64,000 bases of DNA, from assembly GCA_903892415.1 (NCBI GenBank), contig CAITIQ010000288.1, forward strand, positions 1-64,000, in the 5' to 3' direction. How positions within the stretch are numbered: the stretch's first letter is position 1; each line of letters begins with the position of its first letter. A program made the position numbers and the translations under genes. Positions 5,365 to 42,453 of this stretch are shown in pieces. The notes under the pieces are model-generated. The model saw nothing but the letters and a program-made list of their open reading frames with translations, had not been told where the DNA came from and made no database searches. The stretch is from an uncultured delta proteobacterium. Lineage in GTDB: Bacteria > Myxococcota_A > Polyangia > Polyangiales > Polyangiaceae.

Positions 5365-6045
5365 ATGTCGCGGGACCACTCCGTTTACGTTAAGACGCAG
5401 CAACGCACCCTGAAGCAAGTGTTCGCTGTGGCGCAGGAATGCGCCCGCGAATTTGGGGTCACCTGCGAGCGCGAAGAGTTTATTGACGAGGACGAGAACG
5501 AGGAGATTCTCGTTGGTTCGTTGGGGGTCCTAACCGTGAAGCTCCACCGCTTCGGGGTCAAGCTCTCTGTCCCTTCAGGAACGGGTGTGAAGCGGCTCGT
5601 GGCGTTCATGGAGGACGTTGGTGCGGCTCTCGGAGAAACGCTGGATGCCGACGATGTGAAGGCACTCGTGGCGAAAGAGCAAGCGGATGGTTGGTCGCCG
5701 GCCAAAGAGCTTCCGCCGCCACCCACTGCGCCCGTTCCCGAGGTTGGCAAGCGCTTCGCTGGCACTGTAACGATTGAACTCGTGGGCGCCGACGGCGTGC
5801 GGCTTGTGGAGGCCACAACCACGGCGACGATGTTTCAGCGCCAGCTCCTACCAGGGGGCATGCTCAAGGCAAGCCCGGCCACTCCCAAGATGCCCGAGCT
5901 GCTGACGGATCAGGGCAGATTTCCTCATAGAGCACGCCAGCTGCTTTGCACCTGCAAGTTGGCTCAAGGCGGAGGCAAAGTTCGGTTTTGCTACCAACTC
6001 GACGGCTACGGGCGGGTGATCTCGGTCGAGGAAGAAACCCTCTAG
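5365..6045 (+). CDS. Hypothetical protein, soluble
   Basis: 226 residues, not recognised. It has no signal peptide or membrane segment. Residues ~1-85 form an alpha/beta-looking region with an acidic patch (EEFIDEDENEE); a Pro-rich linker (ELPPPPTAPVPEVG) near 115-130 separates a C-terminal region with a paired-cysteine LLCTCKL and an aromatic strand FCYQLDGYGRVISVEE. GGAGG stands 8 nt before ATG 5365; GTG 5359 is too close to it. Its stop shares the CTAG tetranucleotide with the stop of the converging gene, so the two genes overlap by 4 bp. Confidence 0.75.
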   Translation: MSRDHSVYVKTQQRTLKQVFAVAQECAREFGVTCEREEFIDEDENEEILVGSLGVLTVKLHRFGVKLSVPSGTGVKRLVAFMEDVGAALGETLDADDVKALVAKEQADGWSPAKELPPPPTAPVPEVGKRFAGTVTIELVGADGVRLVEATTTATMFQRQLLPGGMLKASPATPKMPELLTDQGRFPHRARQLLCTCKLAQGGGKVRFCYQLDGYGRVISVEEETL

Positions 6046-7631
6046 CGGGTTGTTGGTTCGGTGCTGGTTGGTTGGGGGGCTTTTCCAGGGGCCCCGCCGG
6101 CAGCTAGTGCTGTCGTTTTCCTTCGCCACGGTAGCAATGCAATCAACGCGGCGAGGAGGGCCGCTCCTGCTGCAATGCTGCCCGCCAGCACGTAGGGCGG
6201 CTTGGGCTGAACTGCCTGTGCCTCGCGTGACGCCTCTTGATCGAAGCTTGCGAGCAGTGCTGCGGCCTCGGCATGGTTGGGATCGAGTTCGACAGCGCGC
6301 TTGAGTAGGAAGCGGTCGGGCCTTCCCTCGGCCAGCAGCATCTTCGCCTCGGTGAAGGCAATCTCGGCATCGATGGTTGGTGCGCTCTGTTGGCCGAGCA
6401 AGCGACGGGCTTTGCGCAGCCGCGCGAGCCGCTCCTCGGGTTGTTCGAACGAAGTCGCCTTTCCAAGCTCGAAGTACGCCGGGCTCATTTCGGCTCGTCG
6501 GTCGAACTGCGGGTCGACGGCGAGAACCTTGTCGTACGCAGCCACCGCGCCCCCGTAGTCGTTGGCCTTCGCTAGCGTCGTACCGGTCTCGAACGTGCGC
6601 ACGACCTCGGCTGCTCGCGCGTTGTCGTAGAGCCAAAACATCCGCTTTGCGAGCGTGTCCCAGGGAACGCTCTTGTCGATCTTCTCACCGGTCAGATCTT
6701 GGTAGGCGTCGCGCAAACGAAAGCGTCCTGCCTCGCCAATCGCGGCAATTGCTTGGCGTGCGGCGTCGCGCACCTTGCGGCGGTCATGGTTGGCGAAGGA
6801 GAGCAGGACGTCGACCGCCTCCACCTCGCGCACGTAGCCAAACGCCTTCAGTGTGTCGGCGAGGACCTCAGGGTCCGTGGTGCTCACGGCCTCACCTGGG
6901 GTCACCTTTCCCAACGTATCGAGGGCCTTGTCGGCGAACTCACGGACCACGCTGGCGTCATGCTTCTTGGCCTCTAAGAGCGCAGGAACCGACTTGTCCT
7001 TCACCGCCAGGACTTGGCGCATGAGGTCAACCCGCAGCATTTCACCGAAATTCGCGCGCAACTCCAGCAACTCACGCACGGCGGCGGTCGTGCCCATCAC
7101 TCGCAGCATTCGCGTGATGGCCAAGAGCTCTACGACTTCACGCCAGGTTTCATCCTTGGGACGCGGCTGATCGAGCACGAACCGAAGCCAATCACTCTCC
7201 TCCTCGTCAACCGCACTCGCCTTCTTGCTTTTCTTTTCAGCCTTTCGAGCGTCGCGTGCCGACTTGCGCGCAGCCGCTATCGTTCGCGGGGCTTGGTCGC
7301 GGTCAAGCGACTCGCGAATGGTCTGAATGCGTCCATACACGGCGGGCAGCAGGCTAGCGTCCACCTTGTCGAGGTCCGCGAAGGCCGCCTCGCGAATGTC
7401 GGACTTCTCCGAGGTGAGGCGCGTTAGCAACTTGTCGACTTCACGCGTACTCTCCTGCTCGGCCTCAAGTCGTTTGATCGGCGGCAGCACTGCCAGTGCA
7501 GGGAGTTCGCCATCTGGCGGCGGCTTCGGCAGGGAGGTGCTTGACTCGGCGCCGGGGGAGCTGGGGCCCGAAAGCGCGGGCTGGGGCGCAAGGGCAGCTA
7601 GCAACAGGGCGGCGAGAAGGGCCCGAGTCAT
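6042..7631 (-). CDS. Exported HEAT/TPR-type repeat protein with C-terminal membrane anchor
   Basis: 529 residues from ATG 7631. The N-terminus (MTRALLAALLLAALAPQPALSG) is a convincing signal peptide, then a Pro/Ser linker and helical repeats: HEAT-like around 230-330 (ADTLKAFGYVREVEAVDVLLSFANHDRRKVRDAAR) and TPR-like around 350-470 (AAYDKVLAVDPQFD, RAVELDPNHAEAAALL). A final hydrophobic helix near 485-505 followed by WRRK anchors it. The chosen start codon lies inside a palindromic repeat unit, and the frame stays open through two repeat units upstream (to 8018), which would add a non-signal-like N-terminus; there is no clear ribosome binding site. A periplasmic scaffolding role is inference. 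Confidence 0.75.
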   Translation of the reverse strand: MTRALLAALLLAALAPQPALSGPSSPGAESSTSLPKPPPDGELPALAVLPPIKRLEAEQESTREVDKLLTRLTSEKSDIREAAFADLDKVDASLLPAVYGRIQTIRESLDRDQAPRTIAAARKSARDARKAEKKSKKASAVDEEESDWLRFVLDQPRPKDETWREVVELLAITRMLRVMGTTAAVRELLELRANFGEMLRVDLMRQVLAVKDKSVPALLEAKKHDASVVREFADKALDTLGKVTPGEAVSTTDPEVLADTLKAFGYVREVEAVDVLLSFANHDRRKVRDAARQAIAAIGEAGRFRLRDAYQDLTGEKIDKSVPWDTLAKRMFWLYDNARAAEVVRTFETGTTLAKANDYGGAVAAYDKVLAVDPQFDRRAEMSPAYFELGKATSFEQPEERLARLRKARRLLGQQSAPTIDAEIAFTEAKMLLAEGRPDRFLLKRAVELDPNHAEAAALLASFDQEASREAQAVQPKPPYVLAGSIAAGAALLAALIALLPWRRKTTALAAGGAPGKAPQPTSTEPTTR

Positions 7632-7760
7632 TCTGTTTGCTGCATCCGCCTTCGGCGGAATGACTCGTGCCGAGGTTGAAAGGGGAAGGGGCCTGCGGCC
7701 GAATACTTCGGAGAGTGCCCGAGTCATTCTGTTTGCTGCATCCGCCTTCGGCGGAATGAG
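7621..7760. repeat. Palindromic repeat array 1 (two units, ~96 bp period)
   Basis: Unit 1 core at 7625-7666 begins GAGTCATTC and ends GAATGACTC, enclosing the hairpin CCGCCTTCGGCGG; unit 2 starts at 7721 and loses its right arm after 7757. The interval between unit starts is 96 bp and contains a second hairpin GGCC-TGC-GGCC. The same element occurs at 8293-8553 and 40406-40504 with CCACC/GGTGG in place of CCGCC/GGCGG, a paired change. The left end overlaps the first codons of the gene at 6042-7631. The rest of the gap up to 7863 shows nothing recognisable. Confidence 0.85.
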
Positions 7761-7863
7761 GTGTCGGCCAGGGGGCGTCATGGGATCAAGGGGCATCATC
7801 AGGTCAAGTGGAGCTAACGCTTTGACACCGTTCGCCGCTTCCCACAATAACGAGGTCCCCGAA

Positions 7864-8217
7864 TCAGTCCGAGGTGCACCGCGGATCCTCTGGATTTGCA
7901 CCGCAGAAAAAACCTGCGCAGACCGAGTAGCTACCGACCGGAGTTCCACAGTCGCTGACGTTGCAGATGTTCGGCAATGCGCCCAAGCAATCAATAAGGT
8001 TCTCGTATTCAACTTCACAGCCGAGGTGCTCCGCGGTGTCGTATTCCGCTTCGCACTTGTCGAGGCAGGAGTAAGAGCCCCCCTCGCAGTCGTTGGCTAG
8101 GTCACACTGCTCAACGCACGCGGCAACCACGGCATTGGAGGCTTCTGAACCGCACGCCACCCCGCAGGCGGCAAAGAACCGCAACACATGAAGGGACCAG
8201 CGCGGGGGTGACTCCAA
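7864..8217 (-). CDS. Small Cys-rich putative lipoprotein
   Basis: 117 residues from a TTG at 8217. Spaced cysteine pairs (CVEQC, CEGGSYSCLDKC, GCEVEY, CNVSDC, CAGFFC) are typical of short myxobacterial secreted Cys-rich proteins. The hydrophobic start (VLRFFAACGVACG) ends in a possible lipobox cysteine, but it is short and the start is uncertain (GTG 8187 is the alternative, giving 107 residues). It lies between the two repeat arrays. The function is unknown. Confidence 0.6.
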   Translation of the reverse strand: MESPPRWSLHVLRFFAACGVACGSEASNAVVAACVEQCDLANDCEGGSYSCLDKCEAEYDTAEHLGCEVEYENLIDCLGALPNICNVSDCGTPVGSYSVCAGFFCGANPEDPRCTSD

Positions 8218-8292
8218 GCGCCACAGCCTAGCCCGGCGAACGCTTGCTTGCGACCACCAACGGCTGAGTACACGTCGCTCGAAAACTCCTCA

Positions 8293-8553
8293 AATGACTC
8301 GGGCCACTGCGTGGTCTGTCCACTCCGGTTCTGTCTGCTGCATCCACCTTCGGTGGAATGACTCGTGCCAAGTCAAAGGTCCAACGGGGCCTTCGGCCGT
8401 TGTTCTAGAAGAGGGCCCGAGTCATTCTTATTGCTGCATCCACCTTCGGTGGAATGACTCGTGCCAAGTCAACCCGGTCAATCGGGCCTTCGGCCGTCAC
8501 TTCCCGAAGAGGCCCGAGTCATTCTGTCTGCTGCATCCACCTTCGGTGGAATT
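8293..8553. repeat. Palindromic repeat array 2 (three units plus an inverted fragment)
   Basis: Units at 8329-8364 (left arm lost), 8419-8460 (complete: GAGTCATTC to GAATGACTC) and 8516-8553 (right arm lost), spaced 96-97 bp. Each carries CCACCTTCGGTGG; between cores a second hairpin GGCC-TTC-GGCC recurs. Complete arms extend to GGCCCGAGTCATTC and GAATGACTCGTGCC, a 14-bp inverted repeat with one mismatch. A lone inverted arm AATGACTCGGGCC lies at 8293-8305. The array fills most of the 378-bp gap before the histidine kinase gene; nothing else is recognisable there. Confidence 0.88.
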
Positions 8554-40405: not shown

Positions 40406-40504
40406 GATTCCACCGAAGGTGGATGAGTGAAAAGAATGACTCGAGGCCTTTTCGAGAAAACGGCCGAAGGCCCGATTGACCGGGTTGATTTGGCACGAGT
40501 CATT
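40406..40504 (-). repeat. Palindromic repeat copy 3 (one and a half units, minus orientation)
   Basis: On the minus strand it reads AATGACTCGTGCC, then the spacer with GGGCCTTCGGCCG, then CGAGTCATTC and CCACCTTCGGTGG: the right half of one unit followed by the left part of the next, as in the arrays at 7621-8553 some 32 kb away. Its AATGA supplies the TGA stop of the sigma54 activator gene. Confidence 0.85.
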
Positions 40505-42149
40505 TTGCCGAGGACTGTTTGCTCAGTACGCCCCAGCCCTTTAGCTTGCGATACAGCGTCGCCGAGCCAATTTGCAATTGCTCGGCGGTGCGGGTCTGGT
40601 TGCCTAGATTGACCTGCAAAGCGGCGAGGATGTACTCCTTCTCTATGTCAGAGAGCGGCCTAACGCTGCCCAAGGTTACCTCCGGCTTAGTTTTTATTTC
40701 TCGTACCTCCTCCGGCAAATCCTCGAGCTCGACCCGCGTCCCGCGAGCCAGCGCTACCGCTCGCTCCATAGCGTTCTCGAGTTCCCTCACGTTACCGGGC
40801 CACGGATAGCGAAGTAGCTGGTCTGCGGCCTCCGGGGTAAGGCCGGCGATGTTGCGCCGCATACGCACGGCGGCCTCGGCCAGCAGAATGCGCGCTAGTG
40901 GCAGCAGGTCATCTCTGCGTTCCCGCAAGGAGGGCACATGCAGCTCGACTACCTTCAGGCGGTAATAGAGGTCTTGGCGAAAGCTGCCGCCTGCAACGCC
41001 GTGCGCCAGCTCACGGTTGGTCGCTGCTAGCACGCGCACGTCGATGCGACGACTCTTGTTCTCGCCCACTCGGCGTATCTCGCGCTCTTGCAAGACACGC
41101 AATAGCTTTACTTGCATAGCGGGGGAGACCTCGCCCACCTCATCGAGCAGGAGCGTCCCGCCGTTGGCCGCCTCGAATAGCCCCGGCCGATCTTGCGTCG
41201 CGCCGGTGAAGGCACCGCGGGCATGGCCGAAGAGCTCGCTCTCGAGCAGCGTCTCACTGATGGCTCCGCAGTTGACCGCGATGAAGGGGCCGGCTGCGCG
41301 CGTCGATTCATCATGCACCAGACGAGCGATTCGCTCTTTGCCCGAGCCGCTTTCCCCGGTGATGAGGACGGTTGAATCCACCTTGGCGACCCGTTGCGCA
41401 ATGTCCAGTAGCTGGCGCATGAGCGAGCTCTTGGCCACGATGCCCAGCGGCTCCTCCACGCCATCCGTGAGGCGCACCAATACCCGCTTATGAGAGAGCA
41501 GCTTGCGCTCGGCGATCTTCAGTGACTCAACCACCCGCTGAAGTGAAACCTCCAAGGATGCTTGTAGTCGTTTGCCCTCGAAGAACTGCAACTCATCACC
41601 GCGCTCTCGCCCCCACTCCTCGCGCGAGCGCGCCATCAAGTGACAGGCTGCGTCTCCCCGCCCAGCGCAGCGGCCCTCCAAAGCAAAGACCTCCTTGCCG
41701 GAGACAAAGCTGAGATAGCCACTTATCAACCCGGCAATGGTCCAGCACACAGGGCTCTCCGAGCGACCAAAGTGCAGTAAATGTTGCTCCGCTTCATAGG
41801 AGCCAATCAACATGGCGCCCTTCTCCGAGCTCGGATCGGTGCCGCCTGCTTCGAGCCGGAAGAGCCCCTCGAGCGTGTGGAGGCGCATGCTCGCTAAGCG
41901 CCAATCGTCGTCGGTTGTCCAATGGAACTGGGCCTTCATTGCCTCGGCCATGCGCCAACCCTGCGAGAAGCCGAACTGCGTGAGCACGGTGCGCGCCGCG
42001 ATGGCGCCAAAATTCTCAAATAGGTATTTGCGCAACAGCCCCATCGAAACCGCGTCGACGATGACCGCTCGCTGACCCGCAAACTTTAGTGACCCCGCCT
42101 CCGAATCGAGCTCGAGCAGCTCTCCGTGGTCCAATTCATCGGCTCGCAT
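40500..42149 (-). CDS. XylR/DmpR-like sigma54-dependent activator (XylR_N + V4R + AAA + Fis HTH)
   Basis: 549 residues from ATG 42149 (AGAGG 7 nt upstream; frame open to 42278). Sensor ~15-180: the XylR_N helix (ARTVLTQFGFSQGWRMAEAMK) and V4R domain. C135, E158, C161 and C169 have the same spacing as the zinc site of MopR-type phenol sensors (C155, E178, C181, C189, from memory). The His of the ligand pocket (HTLEG, H91) is present, but the phenol-contacting Trp is Leu (L114). AAA domain ~235-470 with Walker A GESGSGKE (265-272) and GAFTGA (312-317) for sigma54 contact; Fis-type HTH at the end (TRTAEQLQIGSATLYRKLK). Divergent from the chaperonin operon, its likely target. Confidence 0.93.
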   Translation of the reverse strand: MRADELDHGELLELDSEAGSLKFAGQRAVIVDAVSMGLLRKYLFENFGAIAARTVLTQFGFSQGWRMAEAMKAQFHWTTDDDWRLASMRLHTLEGLFRLEAGGTDPSSEKGAMLIGSYEAEQHLLHFGRSESPVCWTIAGLISGYLSFVSGKEVFALEGRCAGRGDAACHLMARSREEWGRERGDELQFFEGKRLQASLEVSLQRVVESLKIAERKLLSHKRVLVRLTDGVEEPLGIVAKSSLMRQLLDIAQRVAKVDSTVLITGESGSGKERIARLVHDESTRAAGPFIAVNCGAISETLLESELFGHARGAFTGATQDRPGLFEAANGGTLLLDEVGEVSPAMQVKLLRVLQEREIRRVGENKSRRIDVRVLAATNRELAHGVAGGSFRQDLYYRLKVVELHVPSLRERRDDLLPLARILLAEAAVRMRRNIAGLTPEAADQLLRYPWPGNVRELENAMERAVALARGTRVELEDLPEEVREIKTKPEVTLGSVRPLSDIEKEYILAALQVNLGNQTRTAEQLQIGSATLYRKLKGWGVLSKQSSAK

Positions 42150-42206
42150 GGGCCACCTCTCAGTCGCTTTGAAAGGGGGACCATACTTCATCGTGATGGG
42201 ACAAAG

Positions 42207-42219
42207 CGGTTTATAACCG
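42207..42219. promoter_or_regulatory. Inverted repeat CGGTT-TAT-AACCG in the divergent intergenic region
   Basis: A perfect 5-bp inverted repeat, 21 bp upstream of the sigma54 promoter and 58 bp from the activator's start. It could be an operator for the activator or for autoregulation. It is closer to the promoter than usual sigma54 enhancers, so the role is uncertain. Confidence 0.4.
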
Positions 42220-42240
42220 ACAACCGACCGAAGCGGGGCT

Positions 42241-42256
42241 TGGCCCGGATGTTGCA
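42241..42256 (+). promoter_or_regulatory. Sigma54 (-24/-12) promoter of the chaperonin operon
   Basis: TGGCCCG-GATG-TTGCA matches the consensus TGGCACG-N4-TTGCA with one substitution; the invariant GG and GC elements are correctly spaced. It faces away from the sigma54 activator gene. Transcription should begin near 42266, only about 5 nt before ATG 42271. Confidence 0.82.
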
Positions 42257-42270
42257 CAAGAGGCCGCACA

Positions 42271-42453
42271 ATGAACAAGCAAACAGTTCAAACTGACGTT
42301 GGGGAACTGGTGGCGACCGTATTCGACAATGCCCGTAGTCTCACCGACGACCCCGTCGAGCAGCTGCGGCTAACAACCAGTGCGGTCAACCATTTGATTT
42401 GGCGTATGCGCCTGCCCGCCACCACGAGCAAGCAGGTGGTCCATGGCAGCTAA
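42271..42453 (+). CDS. 60-residue protein at the head of the chaperonin operon
   Basis: A short helical, soluble protein ([20 protein letters not shown]...), not recognised. It overlaps the chaperonin start by 11 bp. AAGAGG lies 7 nt before the ATG, but the sigma54 start point is expected at or after it, so translation would be nearly leaderless unless a second promoter exists. It may be a true small protein or a leader coupled to chaperonin translation. Confidence 0.6.

Follow-up and report, generated by a model that had tools for sequence, protein, structure and literature searches.

REP-type repeats are best studied in Gammaproteobacteria, where tag, repeat and RAYT go together, and the REP/BIME elements of Escherichia coli form arrays of palindromes near gene ends. 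REPINs are REP doublets of Pseudomonas and others (PMC3116915); the canonical REP tag is GT[AG]G, with a flanked RAYT (PMC6006769), and the stems of E. coli REP/BIME are imperfect, with a conserved mismatch (PMC8266576). Also described are CGTC-tagged REPs, palindromic repeats without a dedicated transposase gene, and TIRtrons/TIRYTs, which are TIR repeats in genomes with RAYT-like HUH genes (PMC3733652).

The ~100-nt repeats that we describe here in a myxobacterium are alike to REPINs (PMC3116915) in being species-specific, high-copy, dispersed and mainly extragenic, in joining two inverted arms ~70-110 nt apart into one long hairpin, and in occurring both as singlets and in tandem arrays. 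They differ from REPINs by the foot of the arm, which is GAAT/NAAT instead of GTAG/GTGG (GT[AG]G), by an extra asymmetric tail hairpin, and by the absence of a RAYT gene flanked by the ~100-nt repeat. A conserved-mismatch stem, here a T.C mismatch at columns 11/71 of the arm in about half of the copies, recalls E. coli REP/BIME; however, there is no sequence in common, the tag is another one and the unit is ~100 nt long. For this family, as for the CGTC REPs, no dedicated transposase gene was found, but the tag is GAAT and not CGTC (PMC3733652). TIRtrons/TIRYTs fit the second palindromic family of this genome (the GGACGTTTTGTTGA family), whereas the ~100-nt family does not flank the HUH gene. 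Hairpins near the ends and asymmetric ends are shared with IS200/IS605 elements and their minimal derivatives, and two of three cases below suggest that insertion beside a fixed tetranucleotide without duplication may be as well; in contrast, the unit contains no tnpA, and the Pfam model Y1_Tnp has no match in the genome.

We therefore file the family as a REPIN-like variant rather than a proven REPIN, because it has no GT[AG]G tag and no RAYT gene was found between its copies. It is probably a REPIN-like element mobilised in trans by a Y1 enzyme, and seems to add a new family to the parasitic mini-elements of the 'REP' kind. The original prediction, made from the window alone, had likened the repeats to REP/BIME or MITE elements of no named family. 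The first likeness is borne out by repeats that are dispersed, extragenic, arranged as inverted doublets and tandem arrays, species-specific and recently mobile, in a genome with a RAYT-like gene; nor does Rfam 15 contain a match of the unit above the gathering score.

Repeat units in the window and the genome

The window, that is, the whole 64-kb stretch of DNA analysed, contains four complete ~100-nt units and degenerate ones, one of which provides the start of a gene:

6042..7631, minus strand: gene for a HEAT/TPR-like secreted protein, start codon in the arm of the truncated unit 7620..7660
7620..7660, plus strand: truncated unit lacking the left half; it keeps the right arm GGCCCGAGTCATTC, the linker and a tail hairpin, CCGCCTTCGGCGG
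7658..7757, plus strand: complete unit, G-C tail allele, full 10-bp arm stem in the fold
8292..8359, plus strand: degenerate, interrupted unit in which the arm AATGACTCGGGCC and a tail hairpin are accompanied by what is left of a second hairpin module (GTGGTCTGTCCACTCCGG)
8356..8455, plus strand: complete unit, A-U tail allele, RNA z -3.67, DNA z -3.80
8452..8552, plus strand: complete unit, A-U tail allele, in tandem with the unit 8356..8455
40407..40505, minus strand: isolated complete unit within an 8-bp inverted repeat (CAGTCCTC / GAGGACTG)

Five tail hairpins CTGCATCCRCCTTCGGYGGA lie at 7640, 7736, 8338, 8434 and 8531, and one more, at 40409, is on the minus strand (6 found against 0.01 expected). 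The arms, GAATGACTCG(T/G)GCC, are found at 7620, 7658, 7716, 8292, 8356, 8414, 8452, 8511, 40434 and 40492, and the GAAT of unit 7658-7757 is common to the preceding truncated unit. In some units a hairpin module, CCGGAGTGGACAGAGTCCACGAAGTGGACGGAGTCCACGGAGGTCTACGGAGTGCCGAAGGCACGAAGTGAA, lies between arm and tail (L123:1-228, L072:7737-7815, L129:4138-4206 and window 8305-8330); this module also occurs in tandem with a period of 53.

The assembly is a fragmented draft of 10.85 Mb in 673 contigs, 92.8% complete and with a contamination estimate of 6.3%. Its RpoA shares 91% identity with the RpoA of a Polyangiaceae bacterium MAG, which places the host in the Polyangiaceae (Myxococcota). Copies were counted by whole-genome pattern searches, and direct reading covered about 9% of the genome, in stretches flanking known copies. 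An exact 14-nt arm occurs 170 times in the assembly, against 0 for a reversed-pattern control. The pattern of the whole unit has 97 matches, corresponding to ~92 distinct units on more than 60 contigs once double-strand duplicates are removed. At least 10 contigs start or stop within repeat arrays, so that the true copy number must be above the one counted; arrays at contig ends account for part of the fragmentation of the assembly. Among 96 relatives the ~100-nt family has no copies, the few single 13-mer matches being attributable to chance. The exact repeat pattern has no match in named genomes, and no high-copy palindrome of similar kind was seen in 231 kb of the sister G001. The repeat family is real, and both objections foreseen with the original prediction fail, since copies occur across the genome and stem changes are nearly always paired. 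The predicted 14-bp arms and two hairpins are confirmed, although their anatomy needs correction in detail. No match to a plasmid, phage or viral origin was obtained; integron attC sites were rejected by inspection, as the matching motif is absent, and so were CRISPR arrays, as variable spacers are absent.

Architecture, folding and covariation

Each unit follows the plan NAAT|GACTCGTGCC - ~44 nt with a GGCC-TNC-GGCC hairpin - GGCMCGAGTC ATTC - linker - CRCC-TTC-GGYGG - AAT. The consensus of 69 distinct full-length units (98-102 nt, fixed architecture) reads (G/A)AAT-GACTCGTGCC-AAGTCGAAGGTCCAACG-GGGCC-TNC-GGCCG-TTTTTCTCGAAGAG- in its left part, continued after TTTTTCTCGAAGAG by GGC(A/C)CGAGTC-ATTC-TGTTTGCTGCA-TCCRCC-TTC-GGYGGA-AT; the arm sequence of the family is given as AATGACTCG. 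A 72-nt palindrome has the arms GACTCGTGCC/GGCMCGAGTC at its two ends, is closed by AAT/ATT and carries the GGCC-TNC-GGCC hairpin at its centre. The original prediction correctly put a GGCC-TTC-GGCC hairpin inside the interval between the arms, but the CCACCTTCGGTGG hairpin lies outside the palindrome, as a 3' tail that serves as linker in tandem arrays. Copies occur singly or in tandem, and in arrays (period ~96) the tail GGAAT of one unit is at once the start of the next and leads into its GACTC. The tail hairpin as an independent mobile module was considered and rejected, 100 of 111 tails being joined to arms.

Whether taken as RNA or as DNA, most units fold better than shuffled sequences, with z scores of about -3.7 to -4.5, whereas unit 7658-7757 as a whole folds unremarkably (z -0.8). 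In the alignment, 94.6% of stem cells form standard pairs, as compared with 28-46% when partners are slid, and seven stem pairs show two-sided changes; base changes in the stems are almost always paired. The first base before AAT is unpaired in 21 of 67 cells, which would be expected of flanking sequence. The strongest stem pair is the tail pair of the original prediction, A-U in 36 units, G-C in 33 and never broken; the adjacent pair is C-G in 62, A-U in 5 and broken in 2. The exchange of CCGCC/GGCGG for CCACC/GGTGG thus occurs as predicted, and a third state, CAACC/GGTTG, is present elsewhere in the genome.

A tree of the remaining part of the unit implies 23 changes of tail allele, no fewer than the 23.5 of shuffled labels, and two adjacent units in L106, only 2 columns apart elsewhere, carry different tail alleles. 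Since tail allele and remainder of the unit vary independently, the paired change may have had few origins, followed by reassortment. The tail hairpin is kept paired, but recombination or conversion reassorts its two versions, unless the tree simply carries too little signal. Stem covariation is real, yet selection on the stem is not proven, since with reassorting alleles paired changes are no proof of many independent selected events. Of the earlier proposal that the stem is under selection or recently copied, the maintenance of pairing stands; the case for selection is weaker than was stated.

Genomic placement and insertion sites

Genes were called with a simple codon-usage model (84% coding). 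On this basis 48 of 53 classifiable clusters are intergenic, and the five overlaps with genes may be miscalls. For seven genes the stop codon is the TGA within the NAATGA of the element; three more stop 1-2 nt into that end, while on the tail side four convergent genes stop 1-2 nt past the tail; some copies sit between divergent genes. In the window, the stop codon of the gene 40500-42278(-) is the TGA of the NAATGA end of unit 40407..40505. The gene 6042..7631(-) starts inside a repeat arm, its first codons being ATG ACT CGG GCC (MTRA), and its orthologue from a related Polyangiaceae MAG (L192) begins near this position with another signal peptide. The family shows directly both settlement on stop codons and the supply of a start codon. 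A second gene, beside the unit at L071:13081, begins at the element junction, and like the gene at 7631 of the window it opens with ATG ACY CGN GCC (MTRA) at the element boundary. Some units lie in the loop of a flanking inverted repeat, strikingly so at window 40407-40505, L107:8120-8219 and L086:7841-7940. Insertion into stem-loops is not claimed, as the excess is weak: the mean stem is 4.07, against 3.67 in shuffled flanks, and 4 of 200 shuffles were as high.

Eight genes flanking the element have orthologues in both same-genus sister species which keep the gene end (or start) without the element, and the syntenic locus of the window array is likewise without it in two related MAGs. The eight sites empty in both sisters indicate recent movement and, judging from these comparisons, the family spread after the split from the sister species. 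A functional element under selection, such as a transcription end, an mRNA-stabilising 3' structure or a nucleoid/gyrase site, might be expected from the gene-end placement, the compensatory tail changes and the stable folds. We nevertheless regard such a role as improbable, since copies also lie between divergent genes, orthologous ends in both sisters do without them, tail alleles reassort freely and Rfam offers no match.

The left boundary is nearly always AAT, mostly preceded by G or A, and the right boundary is GGAA, the next base being T in 34 of 46 cases. Flanks compared side by side by eye have no common variable bases that would mark a variable target duplication, and the boundary letters are fixed. 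Three comparisons of filled and empty sites cover the insertion itself. In the first (contig C7), a unit is nested in a copy of the GGACGTTTTGTTGA family; its flanks, joined at GAAT|T, align without gaps over 114 bp to an empty copy, and the duplication models considered leave the empty sequence one T short. In the second (L093), a unit interrupts 51-bp local repeats with a net gain of 96 nt, the unit minus GAAT; a neighbouring repeat copy reads GCGCAGCGAATAGCC, and a 4-bp GAAT duplication fits equally well. These two cases disagree by one base, the final T being part of the element or not. In the third (L063 on contig C9, compared with L097), a unit interrupts a gene copy with a net gain of the unit minus 4, the empty site is AAGC and not GAAT, and the copies differ solely at the junction within 160 nt. 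The unit lies at L063:9805-9903 and the duplicated segment at L097:5248; contig C334 carries, besides an intact copy, a truncated one that has the same right junction.

IS200/IS605-type enzymes insert beside a fixed tetranucleotide without duplication. The first two cases suggest an insertion of this kind, beside GAAT and without recognisable duplication, as for HUH/Y1 elements, and the first agrees with it exactly. The third misfits, and GAAT-adjacent insertion is not always seen.

The MITE half of the original comparison fares less well. A DDE-type MITE, derived from a lost IS that duplicates a fixed GAAT (or AAT/GAA) target at both ends, would account for a left boundary of GAAT (or AAT) and a right one of GGAA(T), and the L093 insertion has a compatible length. 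This origin is unlikely, however: the left end GACTCGTGCC and the right end CCRCCTTCGGYGG, a self-paired hairpin, are not inverted repeats of each other, no target duplication of variable sequence is recognised, it would be unusual for the duplicated sequence never to vary, and the nested C7 case lacks one T.

In the unit L122:9333-9432 the linker is replaced by CCGGCACTGC, the complement of the left flank GCAGTGCCGG, and the palindrome is extended into flanking DNA, as by template switching. One could imagine that the palindromes spread by replication template switching or gene conversion, with paired changes as copying errors; the L122 linker, the tail alleles independent of the rest of the unit and the four target bases replaced in one insertion all agree with this. 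Yet template switching alone fails to place ~92 units of similar length at unrelated sites, and we give it little credence.

Proposed mobilisation and the RAYT-like gene

We favour, with modest confidence, the view that the repeats are a non-autonomous mobile element of ~100 nt, of the REPIN type, whose mover is a trans-acting HUH/Y1 enzyme that joins it 3' of a GAAT-like site. The folded single strand would be recognised by a RAYT- or IS200/IS605-like enzyme supplied in trans, and would be joined 3' of the GAAT-like tetranucleotide without target duplication. Since each copy ends in GGAAT, it would offer a fresh target at its own end, which would build head-to-tail arrays. The copies that persist would be those that do no harm, chiefly at gene ends, where NAAT|GA, the entry end, could restore a TGA stop.

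A candidate mover is the RAYT-like protein of the genome, the only one matched by the NCBIfam RAYT model NF047646, with 48 bits, below the cut-off of 80:

L278:7331-8257 (contig C444 of G000, about 111330-112256): RAYT-like HUH transposase gene, 308 aa, single copy

The protein has the motifs HUH (PDHVH), RYVALNPVRA and WPWST and orthologues in both same-genus genomes, and a profile of these three proteins matches E. coli TnpAREP 4er8 with E=4e-5. Its gene adjoins the second palindromic family, GGACGTTTTGTTGA, and not the ~100-nt family. This second family has 39 exact copies (half-units) in the genome and 0 in the other same-genus genomes. The RAYT homologue of the sister G002 has an inverted repeat of ~97 bp on either side, with yet another sequence (L281:6049-6130 and 7106-7202). 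These two neighbourhoods indicate that RAYT-repeat pairs exist in the genus.

The ~100-nt family is not the partner of the sole RAYT found in the assembly: the search proposed with the original prediction did find one RAYT-like gene, but with another repeat in its flanks. The sampled copies included no autonomous partner; nor was a transposase gene flanked by the ~100-nt family found in the 92.8% complete assembly, or an IS110-type transposase (PF01548) in the genome. The partner RAYT may be unassembled or lost, or the family may be cross-mobilised by another.

It is possible, if doubtful, that the C444 protein mobilises both the ~100-nt and the GGACGTTTTGTTGA family in trans. No second RAYT-like protein was found in the assembly and no other Y1 or IS110 transposase was detected in the genome, and each of the two families consists of species-specific palindromic doublets. 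As a rule, however, a RAYT has a single partner family, whose repeats flank its gene (PMC6006769, PMC3116915); here this is the GGACGTTTTGTTGA family, and the two repeats have no evident common arm sequence. More speculatively still, a GAAT-tagged element of three hairpins might spread as single-stranded DNA through a foreign enzyme, a borrowed RAYT or an undescribed HUH protein, make its own next target and use restored stop codons. This myxobacterium combines a single RAYT-like gene with two species-specific palindromic families, of which the larger does not flank the gene; the spread of REPs without a transposase becomes testable, with one protein and two substrates.

The GGACGTTTTGTTGA family follows the pattern GGATGGGCG..GGACGTTTTGTTGA....TCAACAAAACGTCC.. 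at L289, L293, L308 and other loci, and the ~97-bp inverted repeats of G002 carry internal GACTC/GAGTC motifs in a TIRtron-like arrangement.
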